Source of the DNA: Salinisphaeraceae bacterium
GTDB lineage: Bacteria; Pseudomonadota; Gammaproteobacteria; Nevskiales; Salinisphaeraceae
Reading direction: 5' to 3'
Length of the DNA: 64,000 nucleotides
Assembly (NCBI GenBank): GCA_002683405.1
Contig: NYTH01000033.1
Coordinates: 124,001 to 188,000, forward strand
This document shows positions 30,347-36,944 of this stretch, piece after piece. The number at the start of each line of letters is the position of its first letter. The stretch's first letter is position 1. The translations under genes were made by a program, and so were the position numbers. The notes beneath the pieces are model-generated. The model was not told where the DNA came from, searched no databases, and worked only from the letters and a program-made list of their open reading frames with translations.

Positions 30347-31006
30347 CTACAGATCCAACCGCACCAATCCCATCCGCGACGCGGCCAGCGCCGCTTCTGC
30401 GCGGCTGGATATCTCGAGCTTGCGATAAACGTTCTTGATGTAACCCGCCGCGGTATTACGGGTTACGCCCATGCTGTCAGCCACTTCATTGAGCCGGTAG
30501 CCCTTGGCGATGAGCAGGAGCGTTTCGGTCTCGCGCGGTGAAAGCTGTTCGGCGGCCTGCTGGGCGGCGTCCGGCTCGAACATGCGCAGCAGCCGTCGAG
30601 CGATGACCGGCGACAGCGGCGGCTCGCCGCCGTGTATACGCTGCAGCTGCGCCACCAGCCGCGCAGCCGGCTGATCCTTGAGCAGGTAACCGGCCGCGCC
30701 CGCCCGCAGGGCCGGAAACAGATGCGCATCATCAGCGTAGATAGTGGTCACTACGCACTTGCAATGCCGGCCCTCGCGACGCGCCTGCTCGATCAGATCC
30801 ACGCCACTGCCATCCGGCAAGCCCAGATCCACCAGCGCCAGTTCCGGATTGATCGAGGCCAGTGCCAGACGCCCCTGCTCCAGCGTCTCGACCGCATGAA
30901 CCCGGATATCGGGAAAGGCTTCGGCCAGCAGTTCCTGCAGCCATTCGCGAGAAGTGGGCAGATCTTCGACCACCAGCGCCAAGCGCGGACCGCGCCGCTC
31001 AGCCAT
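30347..31006 (-). CDS. NarL/LuxR-type response regulator
   Basis: A 219-aa two-component regulator. The receiver has the acidic pair (E14, D15), phosphoacceptor D60 in LALVDLGLPDGSG, T86 and K109 (YLLKD). The output is a LuxR-type helix-turn-helix (LSPRETETLLLIAKGYRLNEVADSMGVTRNTAAGYIKNVY). It is the last gene of the kinase-kinase-regulator operon and overlaps the upstream kinase by 8 nt. A NarL-like inverted heptamer lies beyond the operon start at 35433-35448, a possible target. Confidence 0.94.
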   Translation of the reverse strand: MAERRGPRLALVVEDLPTSREWLQELLAEAFPDIRVHAVETLEQGRLALASINPELALVDLGLPDGSGVDLIEQARREGRHCKCVVTTIYADDAHLFPALRAGAAGYLLKDQPAARLVAQLQRIHGGEPPLSPVIARRLLRMFEPDAAQQAAEQLSPRETETLLLIAKGYRLNEVADSMGVTRNTAAGYIKNVYRKLEISSRAEAALAASRMGLVRLDL

Positions 31007-33155
31007 GCTGCTCTTCGGCGGCCAGATTCAGATCACATGCCATGCGCACACCTCCGCGCCCTGTGTCAGTCCAGTCAATCCGTCCTGCCAGCTGCCTGAC
31101 CCGGGCTTGGATATTTCGCAGCCCTCGTCCGAACGACCACGTTTCAGGCGTCGAAGCGGCCCCGTCATGCAGCAGCGTCAGCCTAATCTGCGGAAACGCG
31201 ACGTGGACCGCCACCTCTATATAGGTGGGGTGGCCGTGCTGAATTGCGTTGGCAAGCGCTTCGCGCAGGATGCGCAACGGGTTGGCCCGGGCCATGGCCG
31301 AGAGTGCCTCGTCCGGCAGGTCGCCCGTCTGGCGCCAGCGCAGGGTCACATCCGCGAGGTCGCAGTAGTCGGCGACCTGGCTTTTCCACTCTTCCAGGCA
31401 TTCGGCCAGCGAGCGCCGCGCTTCCGACAGCTGATCCACAACCAGACGCACCTCGGCCAGCGCCGCCCGCTGCGCGTCAGCAGACAACTGATCCGGAGCC
31501 TTGAGAATCTGCATGAAAATCCGGTTGCTCAGATCGTCTTCCAGATCGGTACGAATTCGTTTGCGCTCCGCGCGCACGCCGGCCTCCCAGGCCGCACGAA
31601 CATCCCAGCCATGCTGTGCGAGCGGCATGAGCGTCTGCGCCAGCTGAAGATCGGCGGTCTCGAACAGGCGCGAGCCACCATCAGGCCACTGGATACTCAT
31701 GGCCGGAAGCTGCGGGGTCGCCGGCATGATCAGCGTGGAGCCGTCATCCGTGATCTCAGGCTCACCGCCTGCAGCCGCACACGGCTGCACATCCACGGGT
31801 CGGAAGACCTGTTGCAGCAGTGCCGCCCATAACACGTCCCGGTTGGCCTCGGCCTTCGGATCAAGCAGGAACCGCATGCCCTGACCAAGAATCGGCGCCA
31901 CACGATGCCGCAGGTGGCGCACGCGCCGGGCGCGCACCATGTCGCGCAGCGGGAAATACAGCCAGCCCAGCAATGCCAGCGTGGCGATTAGCGTGCCGGT
32001 TTGCGATAGACCGGCGAAGCGCGCAAGCAGCGGCATCAGCGCCAGCCCGATCAGCAACGAGGCCGAGCCGGCCAGTGCCGGATACCAGAGCCGCTGCAGC
32101 TGAAACAGCCCGTAGCGCGCCACCCCCACCGCCATGCCGGCGTAGACGAGCAGCAGCAGACCGAAGGAATAGCTTTGTGGTAACAGCGGCGGCTGGCCAG
32201 TCATAAGCGGCAGGAAGGTGATGGCCTGAAACAACGTGGCCCCCACGAACAGGGGAAAGACAAACCAGCGAAAAGCGATCCTGTCGCCCGGCTGCGTCAG
32301 GCGGCGACGCTGCAAGACCGCCAGAGCAAAGGTGATCAGCAGCGCCGCAACGAGGGGATAGCGGAAGCCTGCATCGACGCTGGGCATCCATTGCAAGACA
32401 TCCAGCACCCAGATTCCCATGAACGCCGCGAGCACGAGCGGCACGAGCGGCCTCCGGGTCAGCGAGGTTGGGTAATGCAACAAGAGCCCGATGAGCGCGG
32501 CACCGAACAACATGCCGCCGCCGTGGTTCAGGATTGCCAGCACGCGGAACAGCGTGCTCGTGAGGGCGAGCTCGCGGGTGCTGTAGACCGCTGCCGTCAA
32601 TCCCACCAGGAACAGGCCCATGCCGGTGGTGGCGAACAGCAATGCCGGGCGGTTGCGTCGATAGGCGCAGACGGCTGCGCCAATGGCCAGGCAGCTCACG
32701 CCAAACGCCAGCTGAAACCAGAACGCCACCGGCAGCGACGCCACCGGTCGGTATTTGAAGGGGGTAACCGATACTCGACGCCCATCGGTAAGCACCAGCG
32801 TCAGTCTCTCCGCTGATAGCTGCGCGCGCAGCCGACCCTGCCGTTCGATGAACCGATTGTAGTCGTCGTAATTTTGATGAAAATCCGGCTCTTCAAGCAC
32901 GTCGCCGGCTTCCAGGGCGACAGGCATCTCGCCATCGCCGACCAACGCGGAGAGTCTCGTCCCGGGTCGCAACTGGTCTGCAACCGGTACGTCGGCGCTG
33001 ACCCGGGCCACGCTCAGTCCATCCTCGGCGGCTCTAAGCGTCAACCCCAGCCAGGGCTGCTGCGTGGCCAGCCAGATCATGGCGACCACGCCAGCAAGCG
33101 ACAGCAAAACCGATGCGAGCAGAATGCTGGTCGGCGTGGGCGTAGTCTTAGGCAT
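30999..33155 (-). CDS. 7TM histidine-kinase paralogue lacking the phosphoacceptor His (pseudokinase)
   Basis: A 718-aa membrane protein with the same layout as its neighbour: N-terminal TM, extracytoplasmic part, several further TM helices (with YSTRELALTSTLFRVLAI), a GAF-like linker and a NarX/HisKA_3-type kinase core. The dimerisation box reads RAERKRIRTDLEDDLSNRIF, where working kinases have RDLHDDVG: the His is E539 (codon 31539-31541). The N-box ILREALANAIQHG and G-box FGRGLRNIQARVRQLAG persist, so ATP binding and transphosphorylation remain possible. It is coupled by 8-nt overlaps to the intact kinase and the regulator. Confidence 0.9.
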   Translation of the reverse strand: MPKTTPTPTSILLASVLLSLAGVVAMIWLATQQPWLGLTLRAAEDGLSVARVSADVPVADQLRPGTRLSALVGDGEMPVALEAGDVLEEPDFHQNYDDYNRFIERQGRLRAQLSAERLTLVLTDGRRVSVTPFKYRPVASLPVAFWFQLAFGVSCLAIGAAVCAYRRNRPALLFATTGMGLFLVGLTAAVYSTRELALTSTLFRVLAILNHGGGMLFGAALIGLLLHYPTSLTRRPLVPLVLAAFMGIWVLDVLQWMPSVDAGFRYPLVAALLITFALAVLQRRRLTQPGDRIAFRWFVFPLFVGATLFQAITFLPLMTGQPPLLPQSYSFGLLLLVYAGMAVGVARYGLFQLQRLWYPALAGSASLLIGLALMPLLARFAGLSQTGTLIATLALLGWLYFPLRDMVRARRVRHLRHRVAPILGQGMRFLLDPKAEANRDVLWAALLQQVFRPVDVQPCAAAGGEPEITDDGSTLIMPATPQLPAMSIQWPDGGSRLFETADLQLAQTLMPLAQHGWDVRAAWEAGVRAERKRIRTDLEDDLSNRIFMQILKAPDQLSADAQRAALAEVRLVVDQLSEARRSLAECLEEWKSQVADYCDLADVTLRWRQTGDLPDEALSAMARANPLRILREALANAIQHGHPTYIEVAVHVAFPQIRLTLLHDGAASTPETWSFGRGLRNIQARVRQLAGRIDWTDTGRGGVRMACDLNLAAEEQHG

Positions 33156-35286
33156 GCGCCTCTCTCATGGCGTCGGCCTCATCGATCTGCAGCGGCACCG
33201 CCCACCGGGTAACCAGCGTCTGCGGCTCACGCGACCACTGAATATCGCCCCCGAGCTGATCGGCGCGATAGCGCAGATTGTGCAGACCTATATTGGCGCG
33301 CCACTCGGCCGGCTCGGGGCCCTCGTAAGCATGCTCGACTCTACAGGCCAGATGCGTCTGCGAAACCTGGATGGTCACGCTGATCCAGGACGGCGCGGCA
33401 TGCTTGAGCGCGTTGGTCAGCACCTCGCGGAAAAGCCGGGTCAGCGCCAGTATTTCGCCCCCGGCCCTGGCCTGCGGCGGCGGCTCGCCATAGACCACCC
33501 ATTCGATAACGGCGTCCGCCATTTCGCAGCGATCCACGGCTTCGGCCCGCCATTCACCCAGCAGATCGGCTAATGAGAGAGCGCCTGCCCGCATGCTGTA
33601 GATGACCGAACGCAGCTCGCCCAGCGCCTGGCGAACCTGTTCCGCGTCCTCACCCTGCAGGCGATAACTCAGCGTGAGCAGACGCGCGCCGACATCATCG
33701 TGCAGATCGCGCGCGACGCGTTCGCGCTCTTCGCCCACACCCTCGATCAGCCGCTCGCGATAGCCAAGGGCGGCGGCAAAGACATCCCGCAGGTCTGCAA
33801 GCAGCCACAGATCGTCGCGGCGGAAAAGGCGCGCTCCCCGGTCGCACAAATTCAGCTCCAGGGCCGGGCGTTCAACATCGGCGGCAATCTGCATGCGCAG
33901 TCCGTCATCCACGATGGCGTCCGTGATGCCCTGCGGCCCCGACCGGATATCGCCCGGCGAAAAAGCTTGTTGCAGCAGCCGGGACCATGCCTGATCCGCC
34001 GGCTCGTCCGGACGAGACAGGATGCTGGTCACCATTCGAACCAGGGCGGGCCGCCGGCGATTCGAGCGTAGCCCCTTCTCCCATGCCCACTGCCGGAACG
34101 GAAAATACAGCCAGCCGACTACCGCCAGCGAGACCCCCAACGCCAGTGCCGTGCCCAGATCGAGCAGCCAGACCAGGGTGACATCCACCAGGCAGATTGC
34201 CAGCCCCGAACCGGCGATTGTCAGAATCCGGGACCAATGCTGCTCGAGCCGGAACAAGCCGTAGCGGGATATCCCGATCGCCAGACTCAGATGAATGATC
34301 AGCAGCAGCGCGAACGCAGGGCCCTGCACGGCGCCCACATCCAGGCCGAACAACACCGGAATGAAGACCAGCGCGACGAACAGGCTGCTGCCAAAGAACC
34401 AGGAGAAAAGGAACCAGCGCAGAGCGGCCCGACCCACCGGATCAAGCCGGGCCCGGCGCCACTGCAAGATCGCCAGCGCGATGGCCAGCACAAAACCGGC
34501 CAACACCGGCACTCGTACCCCCACATCGAAGCTGGGCACCCAGCGCAACGCCAGCAGCGCGGCGACAGTTACGTATACGCCGACCAGAATCCGGCCAATC
34601 GGCCAATCGGCCAATCGCGCAGGGTAGTAAGCCAGCGTGGCCGTAAAGCCAGCGGTAAAAAGTAGGGTTCCGGTCGAATTAACCGCGTGAATGACGTTGA
34701 ACAGCGTGCCCGGCAACGCGAGTTCTCGAGTCGAGTAAATAGCCGCAGCCGAAGCCGATAACCACAGCCCGATGCCCGTCAGCGCGTAATAGCTGGCGGC
34801 CATTTCTGTCTGCCGGAACGCCCAGACCGCGACACCGATGATCAAGCCCAGACCGCCACAGGCCAACTGCAGCCAGAAACTCCAGTGGATATCGCCCAGT
34901 GGCCTCCGGTTATTGACTACCGCATCGACCGACTCACCAGAGATCAGCCTCAGGCCCAGCGTCGAATCGGCGAGCGCGTCGTACAGGCGCGTCTGTCGCT
35001 GCAGGAACCGATCGAATTCCCGCATGCGGTTATGGGCGATATCCGGCTCGGGCGCAATGTCACCCGGCGTAACGGTAATTTGGCCTCCGGGTCCCACAAG
35101 CGCAAGAACTGGAACCCGCTCACCGCCAACAAGACGATATTCAAGAGTCTGGCTCGAAGGATCGGACACGAAGCCGACCGAGCGCTGCCCCGTCGCCAGC
35201 AGCACGGCCAGAACAACAGTGGCGACGGCCACAAGCGCGGCGCCCGAAACCAGGGGTTCGGGCGCAACCCTTCGCAGTAGCTTCAT
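33148..35286 (-). CDS. 7TM-type sensor histidine kinase (HisKA_3)
   Basis: A 712-aa sensor kinase heading the operon. TM1 (ALVAVATVVLAVLLA) precedes an extracytoplasmic segment, then about seven helices including YSTRELALPGTLFNVIHAVN, shared almost verbatim with the neighbouring paralogue. The catalytic part has EERERVARDLHDDVGARLL with phosphoacceptor H529, N-box LFREVLTNALKH and IGLHNLRYRADQLGG. It should phosphorylate the regulator at 30347-31006. The stimulus is unknown; the paired sensor helices suggest heterodimers with the paralogue. Confidence 0.93.
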   Translation of the reverse strand: MKLLRRVAPEPLVSGAALVAVATVVLAVLLATGQRSVGFVSDPSSQTLEYRLVGGERVPVLALVGPGGQITVTPGDIAPEPDIAHNRMREFDRFLQRQTRLYDALADSTLGLRLISGESVDAVVNNRRPLGDIHWSFWLQLACGGLGLIIGVAVWAFRQTEMAASYYALTGIGLWLSASAAAIYSTRELALPGTLFNVIHAVNSTGTLLFTAGFTATLAYYPARLADWPIGRILVGVYVTVAALLALRWVPSFDVGVRVPVLAGFVLAIALAILQWRRARLDPVGRAALRWFLFSWFFGSSLFVALVFIPVLFGLDVGAVQGPAFALLLIIHLSLAIGISRYGLFRLEQHWSRILTIAGSGLAICLVDVTLVWLLDLGTALALGVSLAVVGWLYFPFRQWAWEKGLRSNRRRPALVRMVTSILSRPDEPADQAWSRLLQQAFSPGDIRSGPQGITDAIVDDGLRMQIAADVERPALELNLCDRGARLFRRDDLWLLADLRDVFAAALGYRERLIEGVGEERERVARDLHDDVGARLLTLSYRLQGEDAEQVRQALGELRSVIYSMRAGALSLADLLGEWRAEAVDRCEMADAVIEWVVYGEPPPQARAGGEILALTRLFREVLTNALKHAAPSWISVTIQVSQTHLACRVEHAYEGPEPAEWRANIGLHNLRYRADQLGGDIQWSREPQTLVTRWAVPLQIDEADAMREAHA

Positions 35287-35432: not shown

Positions 35433-35448
35433 CCCCCATTTATGGGTA
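35433..35448. promoter_or_regulatory. NarL-like inverted heptamer (7-2-7)
   Basis: CCCCCAT, TT, ATGGGTA: on the minus strand this reads TACCCAT followed by two bases and ATGGGGG, close to the TACYYMT-2-AKRRGTA arrangement of NarL-family sites. It lies in the 233-bp divergent region between the kinase operon and the lipoprotein gene. A GTGTACAC palindrome follows at about 35453-35460. Binding by the operon's regulator is inference. Confidence 0.4.
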
Positions 35449-35519
35449 ATCGGTGTACACACCAGTTGACTAGCATTCTGGTCGAACTCACCCACGGAAC
35501 TATCTTCCAGAGGCTCAAC

Positions 35520-36944
35520 ATGAAAAGTATCCTCAGGGCGGCCTCCGCCGCGACCTTCTCGATTACCCTCGCAGCCTGTGGTGGTAGCGGCGGTGGCAGC
35601 TCTCCGAACGGCGCATCCAATGACGCCAGCAGTAGCCTTTCACTAGGCGTTTTCAATAACGCAGCGGTGAATTTTTATCGCCCGGACGGGACCACGCTCA
35701 TTGACTCCGCCGAAACAGACGGCAGCGGGGCGCCGGTGACCGTGTCGGTAGGCGGATATAGCGGCCCGGTTCTCATCCAGGTGGTGGGCGATGCGGACGC
35801 GCAATACTTCGACGAATTGAGCGGACAGTTCGAAGATTTCCCGGACGGAGACGACATGTGGGGTTTTGGCGACACCACCGGCACGGTCGCCGTGACGCCG
35901 CTCACCGATATCGCCTATCGCGCCGCTGTGAGAAACAACCTGCTTCCCATCTCTGCTAGCGAGATCGATGAGCTTTACGCGGTCGTGGAGTCGGCTCTGC
36001 TGGGCAATATCGGCATCGATACCATCCCGGTAATCGCCGATGAGCCCAACAGCATGGATTTCACCGCTGACGACGCGGGTCGTTACGCCCTGGTACTGGC
36101 AGCGCTCGCCTACATGGGCAGCGACGGGCAGAACGATCCTGTCGACGGTACCGGCCCCGCACTGGCGGTTCTACGCGCACTCATCATCGATCTGAAAGAT
36201 GGCAGCATCGACAACGTCGATGCAAGCACGCCGCCTGAAGTTGTGCCGCCGGCCTACAGCAGCTTTGCAAGTGAATTCACTAGCGCAATCAATGCAGCCG
36301 CATCGGACTACGCAACCGGTCCTTTGATGAATGAGCTCGGCAACGATCCCGCTTACGAAACACCATCCATAGACTTGAGCGCCCTGGACGATGTGGAAAA
36401 TGATGGCGGCAACGGCGGCAACGGCGGCAACGGCGGCAACGGCGGCAACGGCGGCAACGGCGGCAACAATTGCGGCAGTGCGCAGACTGTTGAAACAGGC
36501 GGATGCAACGACCTGGGCCCCGGCAATGGCGTGACCGGCACGCTGAACATCAATGGCCAGCAGACCTACACCGGCACTGTCACAGCGGCGGAGACGGTAG
36601 GCGGGCTCATCAGCATCATGGCCTTTCCCAACGGCTCACCCCCCAACAGTTGGAACGTGACAGTCCGGAATCAGACCGGCGTTCAGGTGTGCAATCAGGA
36701 TGACGGTCCGCTGATTCAGTTCTCGACGGTCGACATCAGCACCTTCCAGAGCAACAGCTTCACGACCGCCAACGGAAACGCGGGTGATTGCCAGATCGAG
36801 ATCACCCAAACGGCTTCGCCCGACGGGAATTCCACGATTGAAGGCGTGTTTACCGCCACACTGCGGCCGGGCGACTCCAACGCTGACATGACCATACGCA
36901 ACGTAACCCGCGGCGCCTTCAGGGCCGACGTTATTTCCGACTAG
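35520..36944 (+). CDS. Large predicted lipoprotein with (GGN)7 linker
   Basis: A 474-aa exported lipoprotein: signal MKSILRAASAATFSITLAAC, lipobox LAAC, then a Gly/Ser-rich start. An N-terminal region (about 30-300) holds TLIDSAETDGSGAPVTVSV and DTTGTVAVTPLTDIAYRAAV. Seven perfect GGCGGCAAC units (36405-36467) make a (Gly-Gly-Asn)7 linker. The C-terminal domain is beta-rich (GVTGTLNINGQQTYTGTVTA) with cysteines that could pair. Likely surface or periplasmic and divergent from the kinase operon. The linker could vary by slippage. Family not recognised. Confidence 0.8.
   Translation: MKSILRAASAATFSITLAACGGSGGGSSPNGASNDASSSLSLGVFNNAAVNFYRPDGTTLIDSAETDGSGAPVTVSVGGYSGPVLIQVVGDADAQYFDELSGQFEDFPDGDDMWGFGDTTGTVAVTPLTDIAYRAAVRNNLLPISASEIDELYAVVESALLGNIGIDTIPVIADEPNSMDFTADDAGRYALVLAALAYMGSDGQNDPVDGTGPALAVLRALIIDLKDGSIDNVDASTPPEVVPPAYSSFASEFTSAINAAASDYATGPLMNELGNDPAYETPSIDLSALDDVENDGGNGGNGGNGGNGGNGGNGGNNCGSAQTVETGGCNDLGPGNGVTGTLNINGQQTYTGTVTAAETVGGLISIMAFPNGSPPNSWNVTVRNQTGVQVCNQDDGPLIQFSTVDISTFQSNSFTTANGNAGDCQIEITQTASPDGNSTIEGVFTATLRPGDSNADMTIRNVTRGAFRADVISD
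36405..36467 (+). repeat. 9-bp tandem repeat, seven perfect copies
   Basis: GGCGGCAAC repeated seven times in frame, encoding Gly-Gly-Asn units between two domains of the lipoprotein. Because the unit is a multiple of three, copy-number change would alter linker length without a frameshift. Confidence 0.95.

Follow-up and report, generated by a model that had tools for sequence, protein, structure and literature searches.

Histidine kinases are textbook homodimers, and to our knowledge few natural heterodimers among them have been documented. In group A Streptococcus, the kinases FasB and FasC and the regulator FasA come from a two-kinase, one-regulator operon; the kinases heterodimerise, one of them is a proposed pseudokinase, and phosphate passes through one essential His (PMC12675982). 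In DesKC, the H188E replacement is a phosphomimic, which stands for the phosphorylated form and gives an asymmetric complex with one regulator per dimer (PMC5231405). In Corynebacterium glutamicum, a ChrS pseudokinase alters signalling via the paralogous HrrS, and wild-type ChrS and HrrS heterodimerise (PMC9491836). DivL of Caulobacter is described as a natural pseudo-histidine kinase that controls the true kinase CckA (PMC4211667, PMC9491836) and responds to whether a regulator is phosphorylated (PMC4211667).

The window, that is, the whole stretch of 64,000 nucleotides analysed here, from a Salinisphaeraceae bacterium, contains an operon with the gene content of FasBC-FasA, two paralogous kinases, called A and B below, and one regulator, R. 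At the phospho-accepting position A has a His, and B a Glu. The initial annotation knew of no described system with this exact arrangement, but the FasBCA kinase-kinase-regulator heterodimer is a precedent (PMC12675982). We give a probability of about 0.5 to the reading in which A and B form a heterodimer, with B as the subunit lacking His, and phosphorylate R via H529 of A.

Layout of the operon and its sensors

Features are given by position in the window.

33148..35286, minus strand: kinase A (712 aa), first gene; sensor of membrane/PDZ-like type, then a HisKA_3 DHp carrying H529 and a HATPase_c domain
33676..33729, minus strand: H-box of A, ERERVARDLHDDVGARLL, residues 520-537, with H529
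30999..33155, minus strand: kinase B; 718 aa; architecture as A, E539 replaces His, ATPase domain kept
31515..31568, minus strand: degenerate H-box of B, ERKRIRTDLEDDLSNRIF, residues 530-547; E539 codon at 31539-31541
31113..31265, minus strand: ATP-binding motifs of B; N-box REALANAIQH (631-640), variant G1 LLHDGAAS (661-668), G2 GRGLRN (676-681)
30347..31006, minus strand: response regulator R; 219 aa, NarL/FixJ type
35442..36944, plus strand: lipoprotein-like gene, divergent to A; lipobox LAAC; likely start M27

On the minus strand A comes first, then B and then R. Both junctions are 8-nt overlaps, ATGCCTAA at 33148-33155 between A and B, and ATGGCTGA at 30999-31006 between B and R; the coordinates, frames and both overlaps had been correctly described in the initial annotation. 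Its claim of paralogy was also sound, as A and B are full-length paralogues with 35% identity over 633 aligned positions, and the sequence YSTRELAL is found in each. R has the features of a NarL/FixJ regulator: the receiver residues E14/D15, the phospho-acceptor D60, T88 and K110 are all present, and Pfam matches were obtained for Response_reg (58.3 bits) and GerE (45 bits).

The kinases had been described as 7TM proteins. Single-chain models of A and B (mean pLDDT about 85) gave another sensor layout: a single helix at the N terminus precedes a PDZ-like domain, about nine more membrane helices and a small GAF-like (alpha/beta) domain, after which come the DHp helix pair and the ATPase domain. 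Because of the PDZ-like domain and the additional membrane helices, "7TM" is an unsuitable term. In three relatives, PDZ was detected by Pfam. No paper on this membrane/PDZ kinase family was found in the open-access literature searched.

The product of the divergent lipoprotein-like gene has a sole paralogue in this genome (L056 5560-8490), which is itself divergent to the closest A-type kinase, L056; this kinase sits with its own regulator. In genome G077 a third homologue (L167 4019-6532) is separated by several kb from an R orthologue (61% identity) and the short kinase next to it. This association suggests that the 35442-36944 product is a candidate target or partner of A-B-R. As a separate observation, the short HisKA_3 kinase and the R orthologue of G077 come after genes of an MCE/Mla-type-looking transport operon (L167 6675-11765).

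The phospho-site and the ATPase domain

The family survey comprised 126 distinct kinases, mostly from Alpha-, Beta- and Gammaproteobacteria. It rests on those loci that were read; one scan gave 143 loci, of which 63 are not included. In the phospho-site column, 124 of the 126 kinases have His, B has Glu, and the second kinase of a tandem pair in genome G022 (L047-2) has Arg. The alignment proposed in the initial annotation thus bore out the replacement, and its motifs, RDLHDDVG with H529 in A and TDLEDDLS with E539 in B, were confirmed by the sequence. The phospho-accepting His that HisKA_3 kinases (HPK7/NarX-DesK type) require is present in A and absent from B.

Other positions of the H-box are altered as well. 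Pfam HisKA_3 was matched by A (28.1 bits, cut-off 24) and by most relatives, and gave no match in B. Each of 108 family members was also scored with a family profile omitting its own near relatives. The H-box of B reached 22.6 bits, the second lowest score of the 108 (median 59.5), and the six lowest scores were those of L047-2, B and four Solimonas second kinases. Further substitutions in the H-box of B are T536, S543, N544, I546 and F547, and B departs from the family at 4 of 11 highly conserved DHp columns. Judged from its sequence, B is a HisKA_3-family descendant that is unable to be a normal phospho-acceptor.

Could the Glu be a sequencing or assembly error? Its absence from relatives would agree with this, and nothing else does. 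The E539 codon is GAA (31541-31539), two substitutions away from either His codon, CAT or CAC, so that a single base error at 31539-31541, which the initial annotation had considered as a way to refute it, is ruled out as the source of the Glu. The five neighbouring substitutions, and a genome estimated to be 99% complete with 0.2% contamination, also argue against an error, to which we give a negligible probability.

Second kinases of tandem pairs account for 6 of the 126 family members, and both non-His sites are found among these six; the chance of this under random dealing, a calculation that ignores kinship, is about 0.002 (15/7875).

Outside the DHp region, B resembled the other members. 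With the family profile, the ATPase domains of A and B scored 93.3 bits (rank 48 of 108) and 89.2 bits (rank 34 of 108), which are normal values for a HATPase_c domain with N- and G-boxes. Pfam HATPase_c gave 22.3 bits for A and 20.5 bits for B, both below the cut-off of 26.4, and was matched by 40 of 41 relatives. B departs at 1 of the 10 most conserved columns of the ATPase domain, and at 4 of 59 conserved columns of the sensor. By this comparison, decay in B is confined to the phospho-site region, and its ATPase and sensor domains are conserved as usual.

The N-box and G-box of B had been reported as retained. This stands for the N-box and G2; the Asp of the G1 box is replaced by His, in A (H652) as well as in B (H663), and for this reason ATP binding by both kinases is given as a prediction only. 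In the family, D is the most frequent residue of the G1 Asp column (67 of 126 kinases), ahead of N (36) and H (19), and the HAY variant of A (HAYEG) is common to the solo relatives L054 and L056. As read from these sequences, the G1 His is a family trait, and not particular to the A/B pair. An ATP-binding defect specific to A, mirroring the defect of B, had been envisaged and was dropped on these grounds.

Homologous operons and descent

Most family members (96 of 126) are solo kinases adjoining one NarL-type regulator. Kinase-kinase-regulator operons were found in this window, in four Solimonas genomes (L048-L051) and in G022 (L047). Three of L048-L051 have named Solimonas copies (L087, L074 and L068), and the fourth shares their genus code. 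All four Solimonas operons have the A-B-R order seen here, and their second kinase retains His, the very finding that the initial annotation had named as refuting. A Glu conserved across homologous operons is therefore rejected; E539 is particular to the present lineage.

The phylogenetic tree places B in a clade with L053 and the second kinases of Solimonas (support 99/95), and A in another clade, which comprises the first kinases of Solimonas together with numerous solo kinases (97/96). Since both clades are well supported and both contain members of the Solimonas pairs, the A-B-R pairing is older than the loss of the His. A sister relationship of A and B was rejected (p-AU 0.00013), and with it the idea that B arose from A by a recent tandem duplication. 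For the two kinases without His, a common origin was rejected weakly (p-AU 0.029), so the two losses were probably independent, as far as the sequences tell. The branch of B (0.87) is no longer than that of A (0.88).

These results bear on the possibility that B is a redundant paralogue being lost, a functionless protein in which the Glu would mark the onset of decay. Such a process would fit a Glu restricted to one lineage, His being kept in the Solimonas second kinases, and it would fit the other five changes in the H-box. However, the frame of B is full-length and coupled by 8 nt at both ends, its third-codon-position GC is of coding type (0.77, versus 0.74 in A), and the sparing of the ATPase and sensor domains is unexpected unless the His was lost very recently. 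We find decay improbable.

We think it still less probable that B forms a homodimer, a sensor that would bind R or some other partner without pairing with A. The long-standing split between the A and B clades is in its favour, as dimer faces may have diverged since, and so is genome G051, where an A-clade and a B-clade kinase are unlinked. Against it, the A-B-R order and the close coupling are alike here and in Solimonas, which favours a joint function.

The pair in G022 differs from the others in the way its parts are distributed. Its first kinase (L047 4551-6344, 597 aa), in which the H-box reads RDLHDDV, stops directly behind the DHp helices and has no ATPase domain. The second kinase (L047 6337-8508), which overlaps the first by 8 nt, has its own sensor, AELRQRI in place of the H-box, with Arg for His and loss of the acidic residue after the site, and an intact ATPase domain (97.8 bits, canonical DDGTGF). 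A regulator follows the pair. Because the His and the ATPase domain sit on different proteins, neither kinase looks able to autophosphorylate alone. If the pair signals by phosphate, L047-2 is likely to be the phosphate donor for the first kinase. The pair is the best available evidence that tandem kinases of this family could act on one another in trans. The catalytic parts are thus fully divided between partners in L047; here B lacks the His, but A looks complete.

Some other loci deserve mention. A kinase-regulator-kinase-regulator array of the same family is present in G467 (L156 1491-7486), with His in both kinases. In G057, a solo kinase with a regulator (L039 3838-5985), sister to the Solimonas first kinases, kept its His and has a destroyed ATPase domain (13.7 bits, N to L in the N-box). 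G051 contains the B-clade kinase L053 (3154-5529) and the A-clade kinase L054 (2774-4927) as unlinked orphans, with His in both and no regulator nearby; its single close R homologue adjoins a short HisKA_3 kinase.

A contig search with the B sequence alone gave no relatives, and an alignment-based search did find them. Few members were gained from the orders around G229, G322 and G373, and those whose site was read all have His. The match in G455 was partial, those of a plasmid search were mostly partial alignments, and both were kept outside the phospho-site counts. A search for another genome of this genus, meant for an analysis of selection on B, gave none.

Role of B and comparison with known systems

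If B is the His-less partner of A, the two proteins would pair as a mixed dimer through their DHp helices. As only A has a phosphorylatable His, R would get its phosphate through A alone. B would supply a second sensor domain, and its retained ATPase domain would phosphorylate H529 of A in trans. E539 would mimic phospho-His, and may hold the dimer in a transfer-ready, one-sided state, as in DesK H188E. The ancestor of such a system would be an operon with this gene order and two His kinases, as still found in Solimonas, B having later lost its His in the present lineage. In this best explanation we infer the dimer, the direction of phosphate flow, the effect of the Glu and the sign of B's action.

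Pairing of A and B is favoured by the fact that both His losses of the family fall in tandem second kinases, by the split L047 pair, by the normal conservation of the ATPase and sensor domains of B, and by a pairing that predates the loss. On the other side, A has a full domain set and could act as a homodimer, the solo kinase L056 has the same G1 variant as A and its own regulator, and the Solimonas pairs keep two His, so that the arrangement needs no loss. The initial annotation had suggested trans-phosphorylation as one possibility. What it started from, an intact kinase accompanied by a paralogous pseudokinase without the His and by one regulator, is confirmed, and the complementary L047 pair supports the idea; the step between B and A themselves we only infer.

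A serious rival, although in our opinion an unlikely one, is that B is a negative arm, which would dephosphorylate R, or keep A inactive, upon its own signal. DesKC H188V, a His-less HisKA_3 protein, retains phosphatase activity (PMC5231405), and B retains the acidic residue D540 after the His position. At the place equivalent to the catalytic Gln193 of DesK, A has A534, as Ala is found in 79 of 108 family members, and B has N544, the only Asn among the 108. We know of no HisKA_3 protein in which an Asn at this place was shown to serve, which counts against a negative role. Moreover, the Gln of the DxxxQ phosphatase motif after the His was found in 0 of 108 family members, and the complementary L047 pair, in which L047-2 lacks even the acidic residue, suggests a positive role.

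The heterodimer reading can be tentatively extended to tandem pairs of this membrane/PDZ kinase family. Tandem pairing may have led the second kinase to lose its His at least two times, and both pairs might be obligate heterodimers with two signals and one His. Two routes would have been followed, a full exchange of parts in G022, and replacement by Glu, as a natural phosphomimic, in B. One family offers a graded series, from solo kinases to pairs with two His (Solimonas), the Glu pair of this window and the exchanged parts of G022, which opens the evolutionary path to an obligate kinase heterodimer to a direct test.

How does A-B-R compare with the described systems? FasBCA(X) is likewise an operon of one regulator and two membrane sensor kinases that are paralogues, and differs by another kinase family and a ComE-type regulator. 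Furthermore, the proposed pseudokinase of FasBCA has an essential His and a dispensable ATPase domain, whereas B lost the His and kept the ATPase domain. DesK/DesR is closer by type, with a HisKA_3 kinase and a NarL-type regulator, and the Glu of H188E is at the same site as E539; the model of B matches DesK structures (PDB 3gif, 5iuj-5iul, 3ehj), including some with H188E. However, H188E was made in the laboratory and sits in a homodimer, whereas B is natural, and stands beside an intact paralogue, so that E539 is the natural counterpart of the laboratory phosphomimic. ChrS/HrrS shares with A/B a pseudokinase affecting a paralogous kinase, but the ChrS defect is a laboratory-evolved frameshift in the ATPase domain, with the His kept, in two separate systems with two regulators. 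DivL is, like B, a natural pseudo-histidine kinase; it has Tyr in place of His, is of the HisKA type, and is not known to form a tandem pair with one regulator. A-B-R is therefore different from the pseudokinase precedents in its family, in the part that was lost, and in the Glu.
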